From Brumimicrobium aurantiacum (GTDB lineage: Bacteria > Bacteroidota > Bacteroidia > Flavobacteriales_D > Crocinitomicaceae): a DNA stretch of 64,000 nucleotides. Below are positions 19,627 through 60,029 of the stretch, piece after piece. Below the pieces are notes generated by a model. It worked only from the letters and a program-made list of their open reading frames with translations, did not search any database and was not told the origin of the DNA. How positions within the stretch are numbered: the stretch's first letter is position 1; each line of letters starts with the position of its first letter. The DNA lies in assembly GCF_003402975.1 (NCBI RefSeq), contig NZ_QURB01000001.1, positions 558,001-622,000 of the forward strand, given 5' to 3'. Both the position numbers and the translations under genes were made by a program.

Positions 19627-20850
19627 CTACTTAAAAATGATTTTTTCTTGCTTACTAATATTTTCCGTTGATGTTGAAACTGGAACTCCATTAATAAGGT
19701 GCACAAAATTAGAAGTTTTATTATTTGTTTTGAAAGAACTTGGATTAAATTGAACATTATCCAATGAATTAATTGAAAAATCACGTGTAATCACCTTACT
19801 TTCCTTGATTTGATAAGCACCTGAATTATCATCAATTTTATTCGTTACAAATAAATCACCATCTAATTCGAAATAAAAAACCGAAGCATCCGGATTTCTG
19901 TCTTCATTTGGATTTCCACTACATGAATTTAAAACATCAATTTTTCCTTTTTCATTTTCACCATAAATCTTCAAACAACTTGTTTTGGCATCATTTACCA
20001 TAAAGTAAAATTTTCCATGATTAAAAACGCCTTTTCCTCTCGCTGTATATCGATCTTCATCCTCAACATAAGTACTTCCATCAAGGTTCAAAGTGTTAAA
20101 TTCGGAAAATATAGGTTGAACATTATTCATTTTAAATGAAGATGCTATCAATTCATCTCCTTTTGGGGTAAAACCAATAAAGTTTGCGGATTGACTATTG
20201 CCATCTGTAGAATAATAACTGAAGTAAATAGACGAAAGATTTGAACCTGCGTATAAAATTGGATCAACCATTTCTTTCTTTTTCATCTTCATCTCTGTTG
20301 CAGGCGCTTTATAATGATAAACTCTGTTGTTATGATGCGTAATTGAAACGAATATATTTTCGATAATGTCTTCACTTTTGATTGGCAATTGGAAATAGAA
20401 AACAATTGATTCTGGCGTATTGACCACCTCTGTTAATTCCATTTCACTTGGAATTGTGTAGCCATAAGTACGTATCACCTTCAAAACATCAAACTTTGTA
20501 GATACAATATTCCCACTTTGGTTGATTTGGTGGTAATGAATGAAGTTTTTCTTTGGACTAAAGTTTTCAATTAAATAAACATAATCTGTTTCATCTGAAA
20601 CAATCAATTTAGCATCATCTACACTTGGATAAATAATCTTATCCCATATTGCTTCTCCATCATGATTCAGTAAATTAACTTCGATATCATTTTTAGCTCC
20701 TGATAAATCTTTTGATAATAAAAGTGTACCATGGTGAGGCCACTCTACCATTTTATAAAATGGATATTTCCCTTTGGGCACTTCAACTTGAGCATAAATA
20801 TTTGAAAAGGAGATCAAAAGAAAAATAAACAGACTAAGGAAATACTTCAT
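19627..20850 (-). CDS. Secreted protein of unknown function
   Basis: A 407-residue protein with a clear signal peptide (about residues 1-20, ending NIYAQ). The rest is rich in beta-strand-like segments (VYLIENFSPKKNFIHYH, GKFYFMVNDAKTSCLKIYGE) that could form a beta-propeller of about six repeats, but I recognise no named family. It has no lipobox, TM segment or type IX sorting tail, so it is probably periplasmic. It heads the operon with udk and the large sensor kinase, which would make a periplasmic sensory accessory conceivable. That is speculation. Confidence 0.7.
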   Translation of the reverse strand: MKYFLSLFIFLLISFSNIYAQVEVPKGKYPFYKMVEWPHHGTLLLSKDLSGAKNDIEVNLLNHDGEAIWDKIIYPSVDDAKLIVSDETDYVYLIENFSPKKNFIHYHQINQSGNIVSTKFDVLKVIRTYGYTIPSEMELTEVVNTPESIVFYFQLPIKSEDIIENIFVSITHHNNRVYHYKAPATEMKMKKKEMVDPILYAGSNLSSIYFSYYSTDGNSQSANFIGFTPKGDELIASSFKMNNVQPIFSEFNTLNLDGSTYVEDEDRYTARGKGVFNHGKFYFMVNDAKTSCLKIYGENEKGKIDVLNSCSGNPNEDRNPDASVFYFELDGDLFVTNKIDDNSGAYQIKESKVITRDFSINSLDNVQFNPSSFKTNNKTSNFVHLINGVPVSTSTENISKQEKIIFK

Positions 20851-46822: not shown

Positions 46823-46866
46823 ATAGGGACGGTTTGCAATCCGTCCTTACACCAATCCGTCCCTAC
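46823..46866. repeat. Palindromic repeat, copy 4, with covarying arms
   Basis: TAGGGACGG-TTTGCAAT-CCGTCCTTA followed by a second right-hand unit CCAATCCGTCCCTAC. The architecture is that of copies 1-3, but GGGGCGTA/TACGCCCC is replaced by GGGACGG/CCGTCCT on both arms. The TAG stop of the SNF2 helicase gene (complement of CTA at 46863-46865) is the TAG of the element's terminal GTAGGG. Confidence 0.75.
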
Positions 46867-49800
46867 AACATCCCAAAAAATCTTTCCACATCATTACTAT
46901 CAAATGATTTTGATTCTTTATCAACGCGAATTACATCTGTTGCTACTGTTTTTTTCTTGTCTTGTAATTGTACAATTTTCTCTTCAATGGTGTCCTTACA
47001 AATCATGCGATAAGCCATTACTTTTTTGTCTTGTCCAATTCTATAACACCTATCAATCGCCTGACTTTCTACCGCAGGATTCCACCAAGGATCAATCAAA
47101 TAAACATAGTCTGCTTCGGTGAGATTTAAACCTGTTCCTCCTGCTTTTAAACTGATGAGAAATACACGTATTTTATCGTTATTTTGGAAATTATTGACTT
47201 TTTCTTCTCTGTTTTTCGATTGTCCGTCTAAATACTCAAATAGAATTCCTTCTTCTTCTAAACGGGCTTTTACCAAATGAAGCATTCCCACAAATTGAGA
47301 AAAAACCAAAATTTTATGTCCTCCAACTTTCTCTGTTAAGTGACGGACAAGTTCATCCAATTTTGCAGATTCATTTCCGTAGTCTTTCTCTTGGTCAGCT
47401 AGCGCGGTGGAATTACAAATCTGACGTAATTTAGTCAATCCTTGTAAAATGTACATTTGAGATTTATTAATCCCTTCGTCTTCTATTTGGTCGTTAATTT
47501 TCTGCTTGAAATAATCCTTAAATTCATTGTAAACCTGTCGTTGTCTTTGACCCATTTCACAATAAATCACGACTTCCGTTTTCGTGGGTAATTCCTTGGC
47601 CACTTGTGTTTTGGTTCTACGCAGCAAAAATGGATGAATCATGCGCGACAATAATTCTGAGGTATATTCATCCTGATTTTTATCTATTTCATCTGAGAAT
47701 GTTTGTTTAAAATGTTTCACGCTTCCAAAAATTCCTGGATTCAGAAAACTAAACTGACTGTATAAATCAAAAGTATTGTTTTCAATTGGCGTTCCTGTGA
47801 GTGCCAAAAGGTTAAATCCTTTCAGTAATCTTACGGCTTTAAAGCGTTGTGAGCTTGGATTTTTAATGGCTTGACTTTCATCCAAAATAATATAGTTGTA
47901 TTTGTTTTTTACATGAATTTCAATATCCTTAATTAAAGAACCGTAAGTCGTCAAAATAATATCAAAATCACCAAAACTCGAAGCGAAATCATGTCTTTTT
48001 GGTCCAATAAAACTCAAAACAGAAAGTTTTGGAGCAAATTTTTCAATTTCAGCAGCCCAATTAAAAATCAAAGAAGTTGGAGCAATCACCAAATGGGGGA
48101 GTGTTGTCGACTTCTGATTCTTTAAATATTGGAAAAAAGCAATTGTTTGGAGGGTTTTTCCTAATCCCATATCATCTGCTAAACAACCACCTAACTGATT
48201 TTCATGTAAGAAAACTAACCAGTTAAGACCTTCTTCTTGATAAGCTCTTAAAGTTGCGTTTAATCCTTTTGGATGAGGAATAGGTTTTAGCGATTTTAAA
48301 TTATTGATTCGCTTTTTCTTCTCATGTAATTCAGTTAAAAAATGAGGCACATTTGTTTCCTCTTCGTACAATTCATCTATGATATTGAATTGAAAATTTG
48401 AAATTTCTATTTTGTCTTTCTTGACATTTCCAAGCTTAAAGTACTTCTTGTATTTTTCAATCCATTCTTTCGGTAAAACTCCAATTGAACCATCATTTAA
48501 TTCAACGAAATTACTTTGTTTTATAATGGCTTTTTGAAGCTTTTTTAAATTCACCTTTTGGTTGCCAAATGCAATATCGACATTCATATCAAACCAATCA
48601 GTTCCCGAACTTAAACCCACTGAAAAAGTTGGTTTATTCAAGTTGTATTTAATTGATTTAAGATCATTTAAACCAAAAACACGCACATTTTCAGATTTCA
48701 ATTGGTCAATGACTTGCATTAGCCACATCGATTTGAGCGCTTCTTCTACAGACAGATAAAAGTAATTGGATTGATGTTCAAATTTTGGATGAAGTGCCTT
48801 AAAGTTTTTAAAGAAATCTTCTTCTAAAGTTTTATCACGTTTTTGAAAACTCAATGATTTTGAATTGGTCCAAACTTTTTCATTTCCTTCTGGAGAAACC
48901 AGTGTTTTTCCATATTGTACCAATGGTTGCAAGACCACAAATTTTCCTTCTTCATCAGAGAGGTAAACATGCTTTTCTATCGCAGGCTTTACTTTTGATT
49001 TTGAGGTTTTAATCCCTTTAAAATCAATTTCATAAACGCGCGACATTGGTTCAATTACTGTTGACTTTAGTTCATCAATTCCCTTATGAACAATATTCAT
49101 TTGCGCTTGATCAATAGAATTGACAACAGCAAAAGCACGTTCAGGATTCAAGAAGCGATAAAATTGATTATTGGCAATCACACCGAATGAAGTAATCAAC
49201 AATTTGGTTGAATTTACAGCAAAAAGCTCATCTTCAATTTTCAATTTAAAATCAAGTTGGTAAAAAGGCTTCTTATCTGTGATTTTCAACACAGGAATAA
49301 CTTCCTTATCACTAACCGTTATTTCTGTTGTATTGCGTTTTGTAAGTGAATCTTTTGCCTTATAACAATACAATTTGATGGAAGCTTTGCTCTTTACAAT
49401 TGAAGAGAACAAGTGAATTTGTTTTTTCGTTCTTTCAATCGTTATTCCACTGTACTTTTCTTTATCAAAGGTTTCAGATAATTGAATACCTTGAATGACA
49501 ACATCCTTATCATTTCTATCTTCGATTTTAGACAAGGCCTCAGAGAAGTTGATATCTGAAATTTCTCTAAACTTGGTTGACAAATTCTTCTTGGCCTTAT
49601 CAAGTTTACCATAAAAAACTTCTACATCGCTTATCTTATAATCTACTGTTGACAATGCGATTCCAACACCATAAGCAGCGGTTTCTTCATTTTCTGAAGG
49701 AAGGTAAAAGGCTTTTCTATCATTGGCGAAAAGGTTAAACATTTTGTTTCCCTCATCAACTACATTCTTAATTTTCTCTTTAACAGAAATTCCTTCCGTT

Positions 49801-50534
49801 GAAATTACCATTTCAAAAGCTTGATCAAACTCCAATAAACCTTTGAACTTTGAAGCTTCCATGGTTCTTTGTTTGAAGCGTTCGATAAAATCATCAGCAA
49901 AATAATCCTTCCCAAATTTCGCAAAGAATGTTTTTAAGAAGGTGAACTTATGTGTACAAATCATTTTACTGCCTTCGCAACTGCATTTTAAAAGTAAGTC
50001 ATTGGTTTTCCGTTTGATGTTAAAAGACAAAAAGAAATCTTCTCTAAAATCTTCATATACGGCATCAACTCTGTTTTTATTTACAGCAGTAAAATTCAAA
50101 GGAGTGTAGTAGTTATTTTGACGGGCAAACTCCATTTTATTGAGTTTTTCAGTATCAATAATGCCGTCCTTATGAGGAATTTCAGTGATTTTAGACAAAA
50201 ACTCATTTTTAACCACCTTATTCGTTAAATCAATAGTTTCATCTTCGATTTGTTGCATTAGATTTTTAAATGCAGCCACTAGGTGTTTACAAATGCCTAC
50301 ACCATGATATTTACAACTACAAGAAGTTTTGATGTTGTAGTAATCAGAAAGATCAATAAAAACGTCATAAGGTTCTATTTCTGATCCATTACATTCGTAT
50401 AAAAATGTATCGTTATTTTGCGTAACAAGTGTAGGGTAGTAGCTGTAAGCTCTTCCAACAATTACAAAATCAGCATTATCACTTAAATACTCCCGGAGTT
50501 TTGCAAGAACCAAATTCAGTTGACTCGATTTCAA
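46863..50534 (-). CDS. SWIM zinc-finger SNF2-family helicase (Swi2/Snf2, RapA-like)
   Basis: A 1223-residue ATPase. Near the N-terminus are two SWIM-type CxCx(n)CxH zinc fingers (CSCKYHGVGICKH and CSCEGSKMICTH). After a long middle region come the SNF2 motor motifs: ADDMGLGKTLQTIAF (I), IAPTSLIFNW (Ia), DESQAIKN (II), ALTGTPIENN (III), SLKAGGTGLNLTEAD (V) and DRCYRIGQ (VI). The start is a TTG at 50534; no ATG occurs before the first zinc finger. Such proteins remodel protein-DNA complexes in transcription or repair, but the bacterial SWIM class is little characterised. The stop codon is supplied by the palindromic repeat. Confidence 0.9.
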   Translation of the reverse strand: MKSSQLNLVLAKLREYLSDNADFVIVGRAYSYYPTLVTQNNDTFLYECNGSEIEPYDVFIDLSDYYNIKTSCSCKYHGVGICKHLVAAFKNLMQQIEDETIDLTNKVVKNEFLSKITEIPHKDGIIDTEKLNKMEFARQNNYYTPLNFTAVNKNRVDAVYEDFREDFFLSFNIKRKTNDLLLKCSCEGSKMICTHKFTFLKTFFAKFGKDYFADDFIERFKQRTMEASKFKGLLEFDQAFEMVISTEGISVKEKIKNVVDEGNKMFNLFANDRKAFYLPSENEETAAYGVGIALSTVDYKISDVEVFYGKLDKAKKNLSTKFREISDINFSEALSKIEDRNDKDVVIQGIQLSETFDKEKYSGITIERTKKQIHLFSSIVKSKASIKLYCYKAKDSLTKRNTTEITVSDKEVIPVLKITDKKPFYQLDFKLKIEDELFAVNSTKLLITSFGVIANNQFYRFLNPERAFAVVNSIDQAQMNIVHKGIDELKSTVIEPMSRVYEIDFKGIKTSKSKVKPAIEKHVYLSDEEGKFVVLQPLVQYGKTLVSPEGNEKVWTNSKSLSFQKRDKTLEEDFFKNFKALHPKFEHQSNYFYLSVEEALKSMWLMQVIDQLKSENVRVFGLNDLKSIKYNLNKPTFSVGLSSGTDWFDMNVDIAFGNQKVNLKKLQKAIIKQSNFVELNDGSIGVLPKEWIEKYKKYFKLGNVKKDKIEISNFQFNIIDELYEEETNVPHFLTELHEKKKRINNLKSLKPIPHPKGLNATLRAYQEEGLNWLVFLHENQLGGCLADDMGLGKTLQTIAFFQYLKNQKSTTLPHLVIAPTSLIFNWAAEIEKFAPKLSVLSFIGPKRHDFASSFGDFDIILTTYGSLIKDIEIHVKNKYNYIILDESQAIKNPSSQRFKAVRLLKGFNLLALTGTPIENNTFDLYSQFSFLNPGIFGSVKHFKQTFSDEIDKNQDEYTSELLSRMIHPFLLRRTKTQVAKELPTKTEVVIYCEMGQRQRQVYNEFKDYFKQKINDQIEDEGINKSQMYILQGLTKLRQICNSTALADQEKDYGNESAKLDELVRHLTEKVGGHKILVFSQFVGMLHLVKARLEEEGILFEYLDGQSKNREEKVNNFQNNDKIRVFLISLKAGGTGLNLTEADYVYLIDPWWNPAVESQAIDRCYRIGQDKKVMAYRMICKDTIEEKIVQLQDKKKTVATDVIRVDKESKSFDSNDVERFFGML

Positions 50535-53686: not shown

Positions 53687-53702
53687 TGTTTCACGTGAAA
53701 CT
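53687..53702. other. parS centromere site A
   Basis: TGTTTCACGTGAAACT, 15 of 16 matches to the ParB-binding consensus TGTTTCACGTGAAACA, with a perfect 14-nt palindromic core. It overlaps the mnmG stop codon (complement of CTA at 53701-53703). Confidence 0.85.
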
Positions 53703-55566
53703 AACGACCTAAATATATCAAAAGAACATTGATATCACTAGGAGACACTCCACTAATTCGAGAGGCTTGACCAATTGTTTTCGGTTGAATATCTGTTAGC
53801 TTGTTCACAGCTTCCGCACTTAAACTACTGAGTTTTTCGAATTCAATTCCTTCTGGAATAATAACGTCTTCTAACCTGTTTAATTTATTAGCCACCTCTT
53901 GTTCACGATTAATATAACCTTCATACTTTAATTGTATCTCAACTTGCTCTAGAACTTCAGTAGACAAATCTTTAGTGAAATCTCGTAATTCTTGACTCAT
54001 TTCTAGCATCTGTTTCATACCAATATTTGGTCGAGTAATCAACTGACTTAATTTAACCTGTTGTTTAATTGGAGAAGATTTTAATGATTCAAGGACAGGA
54101 TTGGCATCACCCGGAATTACACCAATTTTAGATAATTTCTTTTTTAATGCTTTTACATTTTCAATCTTTTGATTCACATGATCAAGGCGTTCATCTGAAA
54201 TCATTCCAATAGCATGAGCAATAGGAGAGAGTCTTAAATCAGCATTATCCTGTCTCAAAAGAATACGATATTCAGCACGTGAAGTAAACATTCTGTATGG
54301 CTCTTCAGTTCCTTTCGTGATTAAATCATCAATCAAAACAGCGATATAAGCGTCAGAACGATTCAAAATAAACTCTTCTTTTTCTTGAACTTTTCGAGCT
54401 GCATTTATACCCGCCATTAATCCTTGACAAGCCGCTTCTTCGTATCCTGTTGTACCATTAATTTGTCCAGCAAAATACAACCCTGAAATCAATTTAGTTT
54501 CTAAAGTATGTTTCAATTGAGTAGGAGGGAAGTAGTCGTATTCTATAGCATAACCAGGTCTAAACATTTTCACTTCCTCAAAACCAGGAATAGTTTTTAA
54601 TGCTTCTAATTGAACTTCCTCCGGTAAACTTGTGCTAAAACCATTAACATATATTTCTACAGTATTCCAACCTTCAGGTTCAACAAATAATTGATGACGA
54701 TCACGCTCAGCGAAACGATCTATTTTATCTTCAATACTCGGACAATACCTAGGACCTTTAGACTTAATCGCACCATTAAACATAGGACTACGATCAAATC
54801 CAGTTTTTAGTATTTCATGCGTTTTCGGATTTGTATAAGTTACATGGCAAGGACGCTGTTCTGTTAAAGCTTGAGTTTCATCTGTAAAACTAAATTTACT
54901 TGCAACTGTATCACCACCTTGAACTTCCATCTTAGAATAATCTAATGACCTACCATCAACACGAGGGGGAGTTCCAGTTTTCATTCTTCCGGCCTCAAAT
55001 CCAAGTGCAATTAAATCTTCAGTAATTCCCGTTGAAGCACCTTCTCCAGCACGTCCACCTCCGTAGTTTTTTTCACCTAAATGAATAGTACCATTTAAAA
55101 AAGTACCACTGGTTAACACAACAGACTTGGCGAATATCTCCATACCCATTCTCGTTTTAACCCCAGTAATCGCACCATCCTTAGTTATGATTCCAGTCAC
55201 CATATCCTGCCAAAAATCGACATTATGGTTACGCTCTAAAAGCAATCGCCATTCTTCAGCAAATCGCATACGGTCGTTTTGAGTACGAGGAGACCACATT
55301 GCAGGTCCTTTACTCATATTTAACATTCGAAATTGAATTGCTGTTTTATCTGAGACAATACCAGATCCGCCTCCTAAGGCATCTATTTCTCGCAAGATTT
55401 GTCCTTTAGCAACTCCACCCATGGCAGGATTGCAAGACATTTGCGCTATAGTATTCATATTCATTGTTACAACTAGGGTAGAAGCCCCAAGCTTGGCAGC
55501 TGAGTTTGCAGCTTCACAACCTGCATGTCCAGCACCAACAACGATAACATCATATTCTTTTAACAT
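53701..55566 (-). CDS. mnmG: tRNA uridine 5-carboxymethylaminomethyl modification enzyme
   Basis: About 621 residues from the ATG at 55566 ([20 protein letters not shown]); the frame continues to a GTG at 55572, which is less likely. FAD-binding GxGxxG at the N-terminus, then [30 protein letters not shown], the [13 protein letters not shown] motif, YCPSIEDKI and the C-terminal GidA helical domain with [16 protein letters not shown]. With MnmE it installs cmnm5U34. It is bracketed by parS sites A and B and close to ybeY, a classic origin-proximal context (gidA). Confidence 0.96.
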
Positions 55567-55574
55567 ATCCACTT

Positions 55575-55590
55575 TGTTTCACGTGGAACA
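55575..55590. other. parS centromere site B
   Basis: TGTTTCACGTGGAACA, the exact reverse complement of the Bacillus subtilis parS consensus TGTTCCACGTGAAACA. It lies between the ybeY stop and the mnmG start, so it also occupies the mnmG leader. Confidence 0.92.
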
Positions 55591-55593
55591 AAA

Positions 55594-55998
55594 TTACAAC
55601 AGTGATAGATAGTAGTCCTCTTTTTTTCTCATTATTTCAATTTCTTTTGAACTTTTATCACCATATCCACACAAATGAAGTAAACCATGAACCAAAACAC
55701 GATTCAATTCTGTTTCACGTGAAACATTAAATTCATTCGCATTATCGATTATGCGGTCTAAAGAAATTAATAAATCACCGCTTACAGTATCACCCACACA
55801 ATAGTCAAAAGTGATGATATCGGTGTAATAATCATGATCTAGAAATTCAATATTCTTTTCTAATAACCACTCATCAGAACCAATAACAATAGATAAATCT
55901 GCAAGTATTTTACCTTCGTTTTCGACTACTTGTTCAAACCATTCTTGAACATGGTTTAACTCAGTAGGAGTAACATCAACAAACTGAAAATTGATCAT
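55594..55998 (-). CDS. ybeY: Endoribonuclease YbeY (16S rRNA maturation)
   Basis: A 134-residue metalloprotein. The zinc motif LVHGLLHLCGYGD holds the His ligands of the family HxxxHLxGYxH signature; the third His is replaced by Asp (GYGD). SIVIGSDEWL and the D(H/Y)YTDIITFDY segment match the family. It processes the 3' end of 16S rRNA and takes part in ribosome quality control. Its ATG overlaps the RsbW-like gene stop (TAATG), and parS site C (55711-55726) lies inside its coding sequence. Confidence 0.9.
   Translation of the reverse strand: MINFQFVDVTPTELNHVQEWFEQVVENEGKILADLSIVIGSDEWLLEKNIEFLDHDYYTDIITFDYCVGDTVSGDLLISLDRIIDNANEFNVSRETELNRVLVHGLLHLCGYGDKSSKEIEIMRKKEDYYLSLL
55711..55726. other. 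parS centromere site C (inside ybeY)
   Basis: TGTTTCACGTGAAACA, a perfect 16-nt palindrome and full match to the parS consensus, embedded in the ybeY reading frame (encoding NVSRETE). A functional site inside a coding region is common for parS. Confidence 0.93.
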
Positions 55999-59794: not shown

Positions 59795-60021
59795 TTTGAA
59801 TGTCAAATTGAATTTAAAGTAATTATAAGTAAAAAAAGCATTAACAGCATAAGAATACCTTGTAAGTCAACGAAAAAAACATCAATAAGTTTTCTATGAA
59901 GACAATGAAATCCGTGAAAAAATTAAAAAATCGAAAAGAAAGAACAAAAAGAGAAGGGGAGAAGTAAGAAAAATAAAATCAATTTTTAAAGAGAACTATG
60001 GATAAAGGCAATGTAATCAAT

Positions 60022-60029
60022 TATCTTTG
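60022..60029 (+). promoter_or_regulatory. -7 element of gltX
   Basis: TATCTTTG, a perfect TAnnTTTG, 18 nt upstream of the ATG at 60048. The predicted leader is about 12 nt. The rest of the gap 59795-60047 is AT-rich with no gene seen. Confidence 0.55.

Follow-up and report, generated by a model that had tools for sequence, protein, structure and literature searches.

A probable parS centromere cluster around mnmG, close to the predicted replication origin of Brumimicrobium aurantiacum

Background

In the established model of chromosomal ParABS systems, ParB loads and spreads on DNA, ParA moves the region concerned and ParB recruits SMC (PMC7333895). Four parS sites lie close to oriC in Pseudomonas aeruginosa (PMC4368675), and in Caulobacter crescentus a parS cluster is found about 8 kb from the origin (PMC5815017). 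A Hi-C study of gut bacteria published in 2023 considered 12 strains with parS clusters, two of which, B. caecimuris and M. intestinale, are Bacteroidetes; according to its authors the origin does not always accompany dnaA among the 12 strains and, as far as the available text of that study goes, the two Bacteroidetes have no homologue of the known condensins (PMC10197239). The origins were taken there as the skew shift nearer to parS, so that nearness of parS and origin is, in that study, partly a matter of definition (PMC10197239).

The locus described here, in the genome of Brumimicrobium aurantiacum, is like the chromosomal ParABS systems of ParB/Spo0J type (PMC7333895) in its clustered palindromes, its three-domain ParB, its ParA encoded beside ParB and its predicted origin proximity, and differs from them in two respects: parAB does not lie near parS, and Smc-ScpAB was not found in the B. 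aurantiacum genome, whereas ParB recruits SMC in those systems. Several sites stand together near oriC in P. aeruginosa (PMC4368675) and C. crescentus (PMC5815017), as they do by prediction here, and the parS clusters of the gut bacteria (PMC10197239) have the same consensus and a similar clustering in other families. In the accessible portions of a limited literature that included PMC10197239, PMC5771137, PMC7333895, PMC4368675 and PMC5815017, we found no account of parS at mnmG or of an origin at rpiB in Bacteroidota.

Results

Three palindromes within two kilobases

The window is the whole stretch of DNA that was analysed, 64,000 nucleotides of contig C1, and positions given below are those of the window unless a contig name precedes them. 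An earlier note, made from the letters of this DNA alone, had pointed to three parS-type 16-mers at 53687, 55575 and 55711, placed at the mnmG stop, in the mnmG leader and in the ybeY frame. The coordinates of the sites and of the open reading frames bear out both the positions, with 1, 1 and 0 mismatches to TGTTTCACGTGAAACA, and the placement:

53687..53702, + strand: parS site 1, TGTTTCACGTGAAACT, one mismatch to TGTTTCACGTGAAACA, sharing two bases with the mnmG stop codon
53701..55566, - strand: mnmG (gidA), a gene for tRNA modification, with the three sites grouped about it (Pfam GIDA, 3.5e-160; TIGR00136)
55575..55590, + strand: parS site 2, TGTTTCACGTGGAACA, one mismatch to the strict palindrome TGTTTCACGTGAAACA (the earlier note had described it as the exact reverse complement of the Bacillus consensus), just 5' of the mnmG start
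55594..55998, - strand: ybeY, endoribonuclease gene with site 3 inside (Pfam YbeY, 1.3e-23)
55711..55726, + strand: parS site 3, TGTTTCACGTGAAACA, a perfect palindrome with 0 mismatches, within ybeY, where it encodes V-S-R-E-T

For mnmG, the start given by the ORF finder is the GTG at 55572, but a start at the ATG at 55566 seems to us more probable.

The genome was scanned as a whole (3,423,338 bp, or 3.42 Mb, in 22 contigs), and apart from sites 1 to 3, all inside 2.04 kb, no site in it has fewer than two mismatches. Under an order-1 model the genome would be expected to hold 0.0023 exact sites, 0.11 sites when one mismatch is allowed and 2.4 sites with two mismatches, and 2,040 bp would hold 7e-5 sites with at most one mismatch; with 0.11 expected in the genome and three present in 2 kb, the cluster is therefore far beyond chance, and the judgement that three such 16-mers in 2 kb by chance are extremely unlikely proved right. 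There are four more sites with two mismatches, scattered on C1 (window position 20587), C16, C21 and C22, against the 2.4 expected, so outside the cluster sites are about as frequent as chance predicts; the genome-wide search for a similar site density elsewhere, which had been proposed as a way of refuting the cluster, thus leaves the claim standing. The regions of parAB and dnaA were considered as an alternative home for parS, and no site with up to three mismatches was found in 18 kb around parAB and 12 kb around dnaA.

Conservation at mnmG

The family Crocinitomicaceae was represented by 40 genomes, B. aurantiacum included, and 37 of them carry between one and four sites that depart from the palindrome by no more than one base. 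Two of the three genomes without such a site are incomplete assemblies (82 and 84%); the third, G010, looked like an exception in the family, which is resolved by TGTTCCACGTGGAACA-type sites around its mnmG. All 35 family genomes that have mnmG and listed site places possess a site no further than 1 kb from this gene, and 71 of the 75 sites listed for them are found within the same distance.

A wider set of mnmG loci was formed by the best 80 of 584 confirmed stretches (L009-L088), among which the closest named isolates are Brumimicrobium glaciale and B. mesophilum, with 88% identity. Sites were counted as near when they lay between 500 bp before and 300 bp after mnmG with at most one mismatch to TGTTYCACGTGRAACA. 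Within these best 80 of 584 loci, 74 have a near site and 70 have at least two, and 167 sites are concentrated near mnmG in 63 kb, compared with 4 elsewhere in 1,502 kb. When the palindrome was shuffled 100 times, the average number of matches was 0.07 and the maximum 4, against 122 for parS. L065, L070, L076, L077, L078 and L084 have no near site, and none with up to three mismatches in the DNA of the locus. The place just before mnmG is kept closely: among the 54 loci L009-L062, 50 have a site with at most two mismatches 21-27 nt ahead of the start of the mnmG match. Several relatives also carry a site at the place of site 1, on the mnmG stop.

Across the phylum, exact TGTTYCACGTGRAACA is present in 144 of the 198 genomes sampled and absent from 54. 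Among the 41 phylum genomes listed, 34 carry a site no more than 1 kb from mnmG, and 11 of these have sites on both sides of the gene; the other seven have their sites on another contig (four genomes) or 25-118 kb off (three genomes).

Wherever ybeY is colinear with mnmG (75 loci), it contains a site in 47. At the ybeY spot that corresponds to 55711-55726, translation of the site gives VSRET in the window, in L009-L012 and in L059, and MFHVE, in another frame, in L013, L016, L017 and L019; the residues at this spot vary in the remaining loci. At the other end of mnmG, in the 80 loci, a site lies on the stop codon in 11 of 22 genes ending in TAG, 1 of 52 ending in TAA and 0 of 6 ending in TGA. 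It looks as though the parS DNA site shapes the proteins encoded over it, both in the frames of ybeY and in the TAG stops of mnmG.

Position relative to the predicted origin

GC skew was computed on 336 kb of C1 (418001-754028), as well as on 30 kb around parAB and dnaA. On C1, negative values prevail as far as the parS cluster and positive values beyond about 626 kb. Its cumulative minimum is at C1:625939 (window-equivalent 67.9 kb), 12 kb from site 3, and a second, near-equal minimum is at about 617 kb on C1 (window-equivalent about 59 kb), 3 kb from site 3; when the 336 kb was permuted 10,000 times in 8-kb blocks, no split of equal strength arose. A skew minimum far from the locus had been named in advance as an outcome that would speak against origin proximity; the two minima of the 336 kb examined lie 3 and 12 kb from site 3, and that claim stands.

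The densest stretch of DnaA boxes in the 336 kb is at C1:628451, outside the window. Within the window itself, in the same scan, there is no DnaA-box cluster of note near the sites, in agreement with the earlier note, which had seen none, and the cluster sits 6.4 kb past the window end. Two gaps come into consideration:

C1:628443-629125 (window-equivalent 70443-71125, L097:6443-7125): candidate oriC, the rpiB gap, 683 bp, 81% AT, with six TTATNNACA boxes
59807..60026, no strand: purine-rich gap flanked by divergent ORFs, where the second skew minimum falls; a weaker oriC candidate than the rpiB gap

The rpiB gap is flanked by rpiB and a LytTR response regulator, is 14.7 kb from site 3 and combines the marks of a DnaA-dependent oriC, namely AT-rich intergenic DNA, a cluster of DnaA boxes and a flip of the skew; it is the likely oriC of this chromosome. 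The ORFs on either side of the weaker candidate we take to be DUF4175-like and gltX, the gap lying before gltX. The skew flip and the nearby gap with DnaA boxes support the earlier statement that the window is origin-proximal, as a prediction from sequence.

The rpiB gap was compared in 22 family genomes (B. aurantiacum, the complete relative G004 and 20 others). In the gaps, 13.6 kb in all, there are 81 TTATNNACA boxes, whereas the 74.4 kb of flanking DNA has 41 and the shuffled gaps have a mean of 9.75 and a maximum of 21; a gap without any box occurs in one of the 22 genomes. Where both genes are on one contig, in 27 family genomes, rpiB and mnmG are separated by 4.8-27.1 kb (median 12.5); they are on different contigs in ten others, and rpiB was not found in three.

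The genome of G004 is a single contig of 4,365,762 bp, with parS at 2.7207-2.7215 Mb, a skew minimum at 2,741,366 (2.7414 Mb; 320 kb examined) and, next to rpiB, an AT-rich gap at about 2.7429 Mb, in the same layout as in B. aurantiacum. Its dnaA is at 1.3 kb, 1.6 Mb from the predicted origin, and its parB is at 810 kb, 1.9 Mb from the predicted origin and 0.3-0.5 Mb away from the interval sampled for the terminus (0.29-0.51 Mb). By this layout the centromere and the predicted origin remain together, with the genes for the proteins that would act on them elsewhere.

The skew gives a more varied picture in other genomes. In G172 it flips about 30-110 kb from mnmG, and in G133, where it is noisy, about 0.1-0.2 Mb from mnmG. 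In G156, a complete genome of another family in the same class, the best skew split is at 0.69-0.89 Mb and the parS sites at mnmG are at 1.376 Mb, a distance of 0.5-0.7 Mb, with an ambiguous, mixed skew from 0.8 to 1.3 Mb, which would fit either a rearrangement or an origin far away; no box cluster stood out around the flip of that best split, and rpiB is 33 kb from mnmG, with an AT-rich gap and two boxes. As the best split of G156 is 0.5-0.7 Mb away, the predicted proximity of parS and origin cannot be generalised to the whole phylum.

Segregation proteins

A profile search for ParB_N gave one match in the B. aurantiacum genome, on contig C19, in a protein with the domains ParB_N, HTH_ParB and ParB_C whose closest solved relatives are ParB, Spo0J and Noc; a ParB_N match is found in all 40 family genomes. 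The gene of a ParA-type ATPase precedes parB, adjacent to it and on the same strand, and this is the single ParA-ParB pair of the genome. The remark of the earlier note that no dnaA, parA or parB is near the sites holds, all three genes being on other contigs (dnaA on C12, parAB on C19, the sites on C1). In the textbook arrangement, parA, parB and dnaA are near parS, whereas in B. aurantiacum and G004 parAB and dnaA are elsewhere. P. aeruginosa and C. crescentus also have parAB near the origin, unlike B. aurantiacum.

The search of the same genome with SMC_N gave 13 places, with open frames of at most 653 aa and no frame of Smc length; the two best matches are presumably RecF and RecN. ScpA gave no match in any of 12 genomes of the class (B. 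aurantiacum included) and one match in each of 5 out of 5 other members of the Bacteroidota, outside the class. Two window proteins of about 1,220 aa were considered as Smc candidates and rejected:

46863-50534: SNF2-type helicase, 1,223 aa
15318-18980: histidine kinase, 1,220 aa

Because Smc-ScpAB was not found in the SMC_N and ScpA searches, we do not assign the system to the Smc-loading sub-type known from Bacillus subtilis.

Discussion

The three palindromes are very probably the parS cluster, that is, the chromosomal centromere, of a ParABS system, at which ParB and ParA would act close to the origin. The parts of such a centromere are present: a 16-bp parS palindrome, a small number of clustered sites, a three-domain ParB and a ParA encoded with parB; an origin-proximal position is predicted for B. 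aurantiacum and ambiguous in G156. ParB, encoded beside ParA on another contig, would load at the three sites and spread over the mnmG-ybeY region, and ParA would then carry this origin-proximal patch into the daughter cell together with the freshly replicated origin. By analogy with the described systems, such binding, spreading and ParA-driven movement at mnmG is the most likely course of events. The system is of a known kind, ParABS, with an unusually constant address at mnmG.

This constancy might have a cause at mnmG itself. The ParB-parS system may be real and bound ParB may in addition control the expression of mnmG and ybeY, with the consequence that the sites follow mnmG when the gene moves; this would be in keeping with the site within 1 kb of mnmG in 34 of the 41 phylum genomes listed (both sides in 11) and with G156, where the sites are with mnmG though the skew flip may be 0.5-0.7 Mb off. 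Linkage of mnmG to the origin could, however, suffice on its own, as rpiB and mnmG are 4.8-27.1 kb apart in 27 family genomes, and we consider such control quite unlikely. That the palindromes are operators of a local transcription factor for mnmG or ybeY, and no centromere, is very improbable: the one site just 5' of mnmG, whose place is shared by 50 of the 54 loci from L009 to L062, is where an operator might stand, but other sites lie past the mnmG stop and within ybeY at changing positions, the motif equals parS over 16 bp and is unique to the locus, and the ParB_N match occurs in 40 of 40 family genomes. Chance occurrence in AT-rich DNA, which does account for the level of the four two-mismatch sites elsewhere, can be dismissed here, with three sites of at most one mismatch in 2 kb against 0.11 expected genome-wide and with a conservation across genera that already refutes it.

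Starting from the parS cluster as a centromere, we put forward a broader proposal that we ourselves hold to be doubtful: the centromere of the Bacteroidota may be anchored to mnmG itself, and not to the origin, dnaA or parAB, with sites that come and go within mnmG and ybeY and next to them, changing even the encoded protein, without leaving this gene. In the class of the window, without Smc-ScpAB, ParB would then either recruit some arm-aligning factor or act through ParA alone.

Conclusions

What ParB-parS does without a condensin was left open by the Hi-C study of gut Bacteroidetes, as far as its available text indicates (PMC10197239), and the class to which B. aurantiacum belongs is a natural place to ask this question, because ScpA was not found in any of the 12 genomes of that class that were searched. 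parS is kept beside mnmG across much of the Bacteroidota while its partner genes sit elsewhere, which provides a testable map of chromosome segregation in a phylum where this process has received little study: one may locate mnmG, and the centromere will usually adjoin it.
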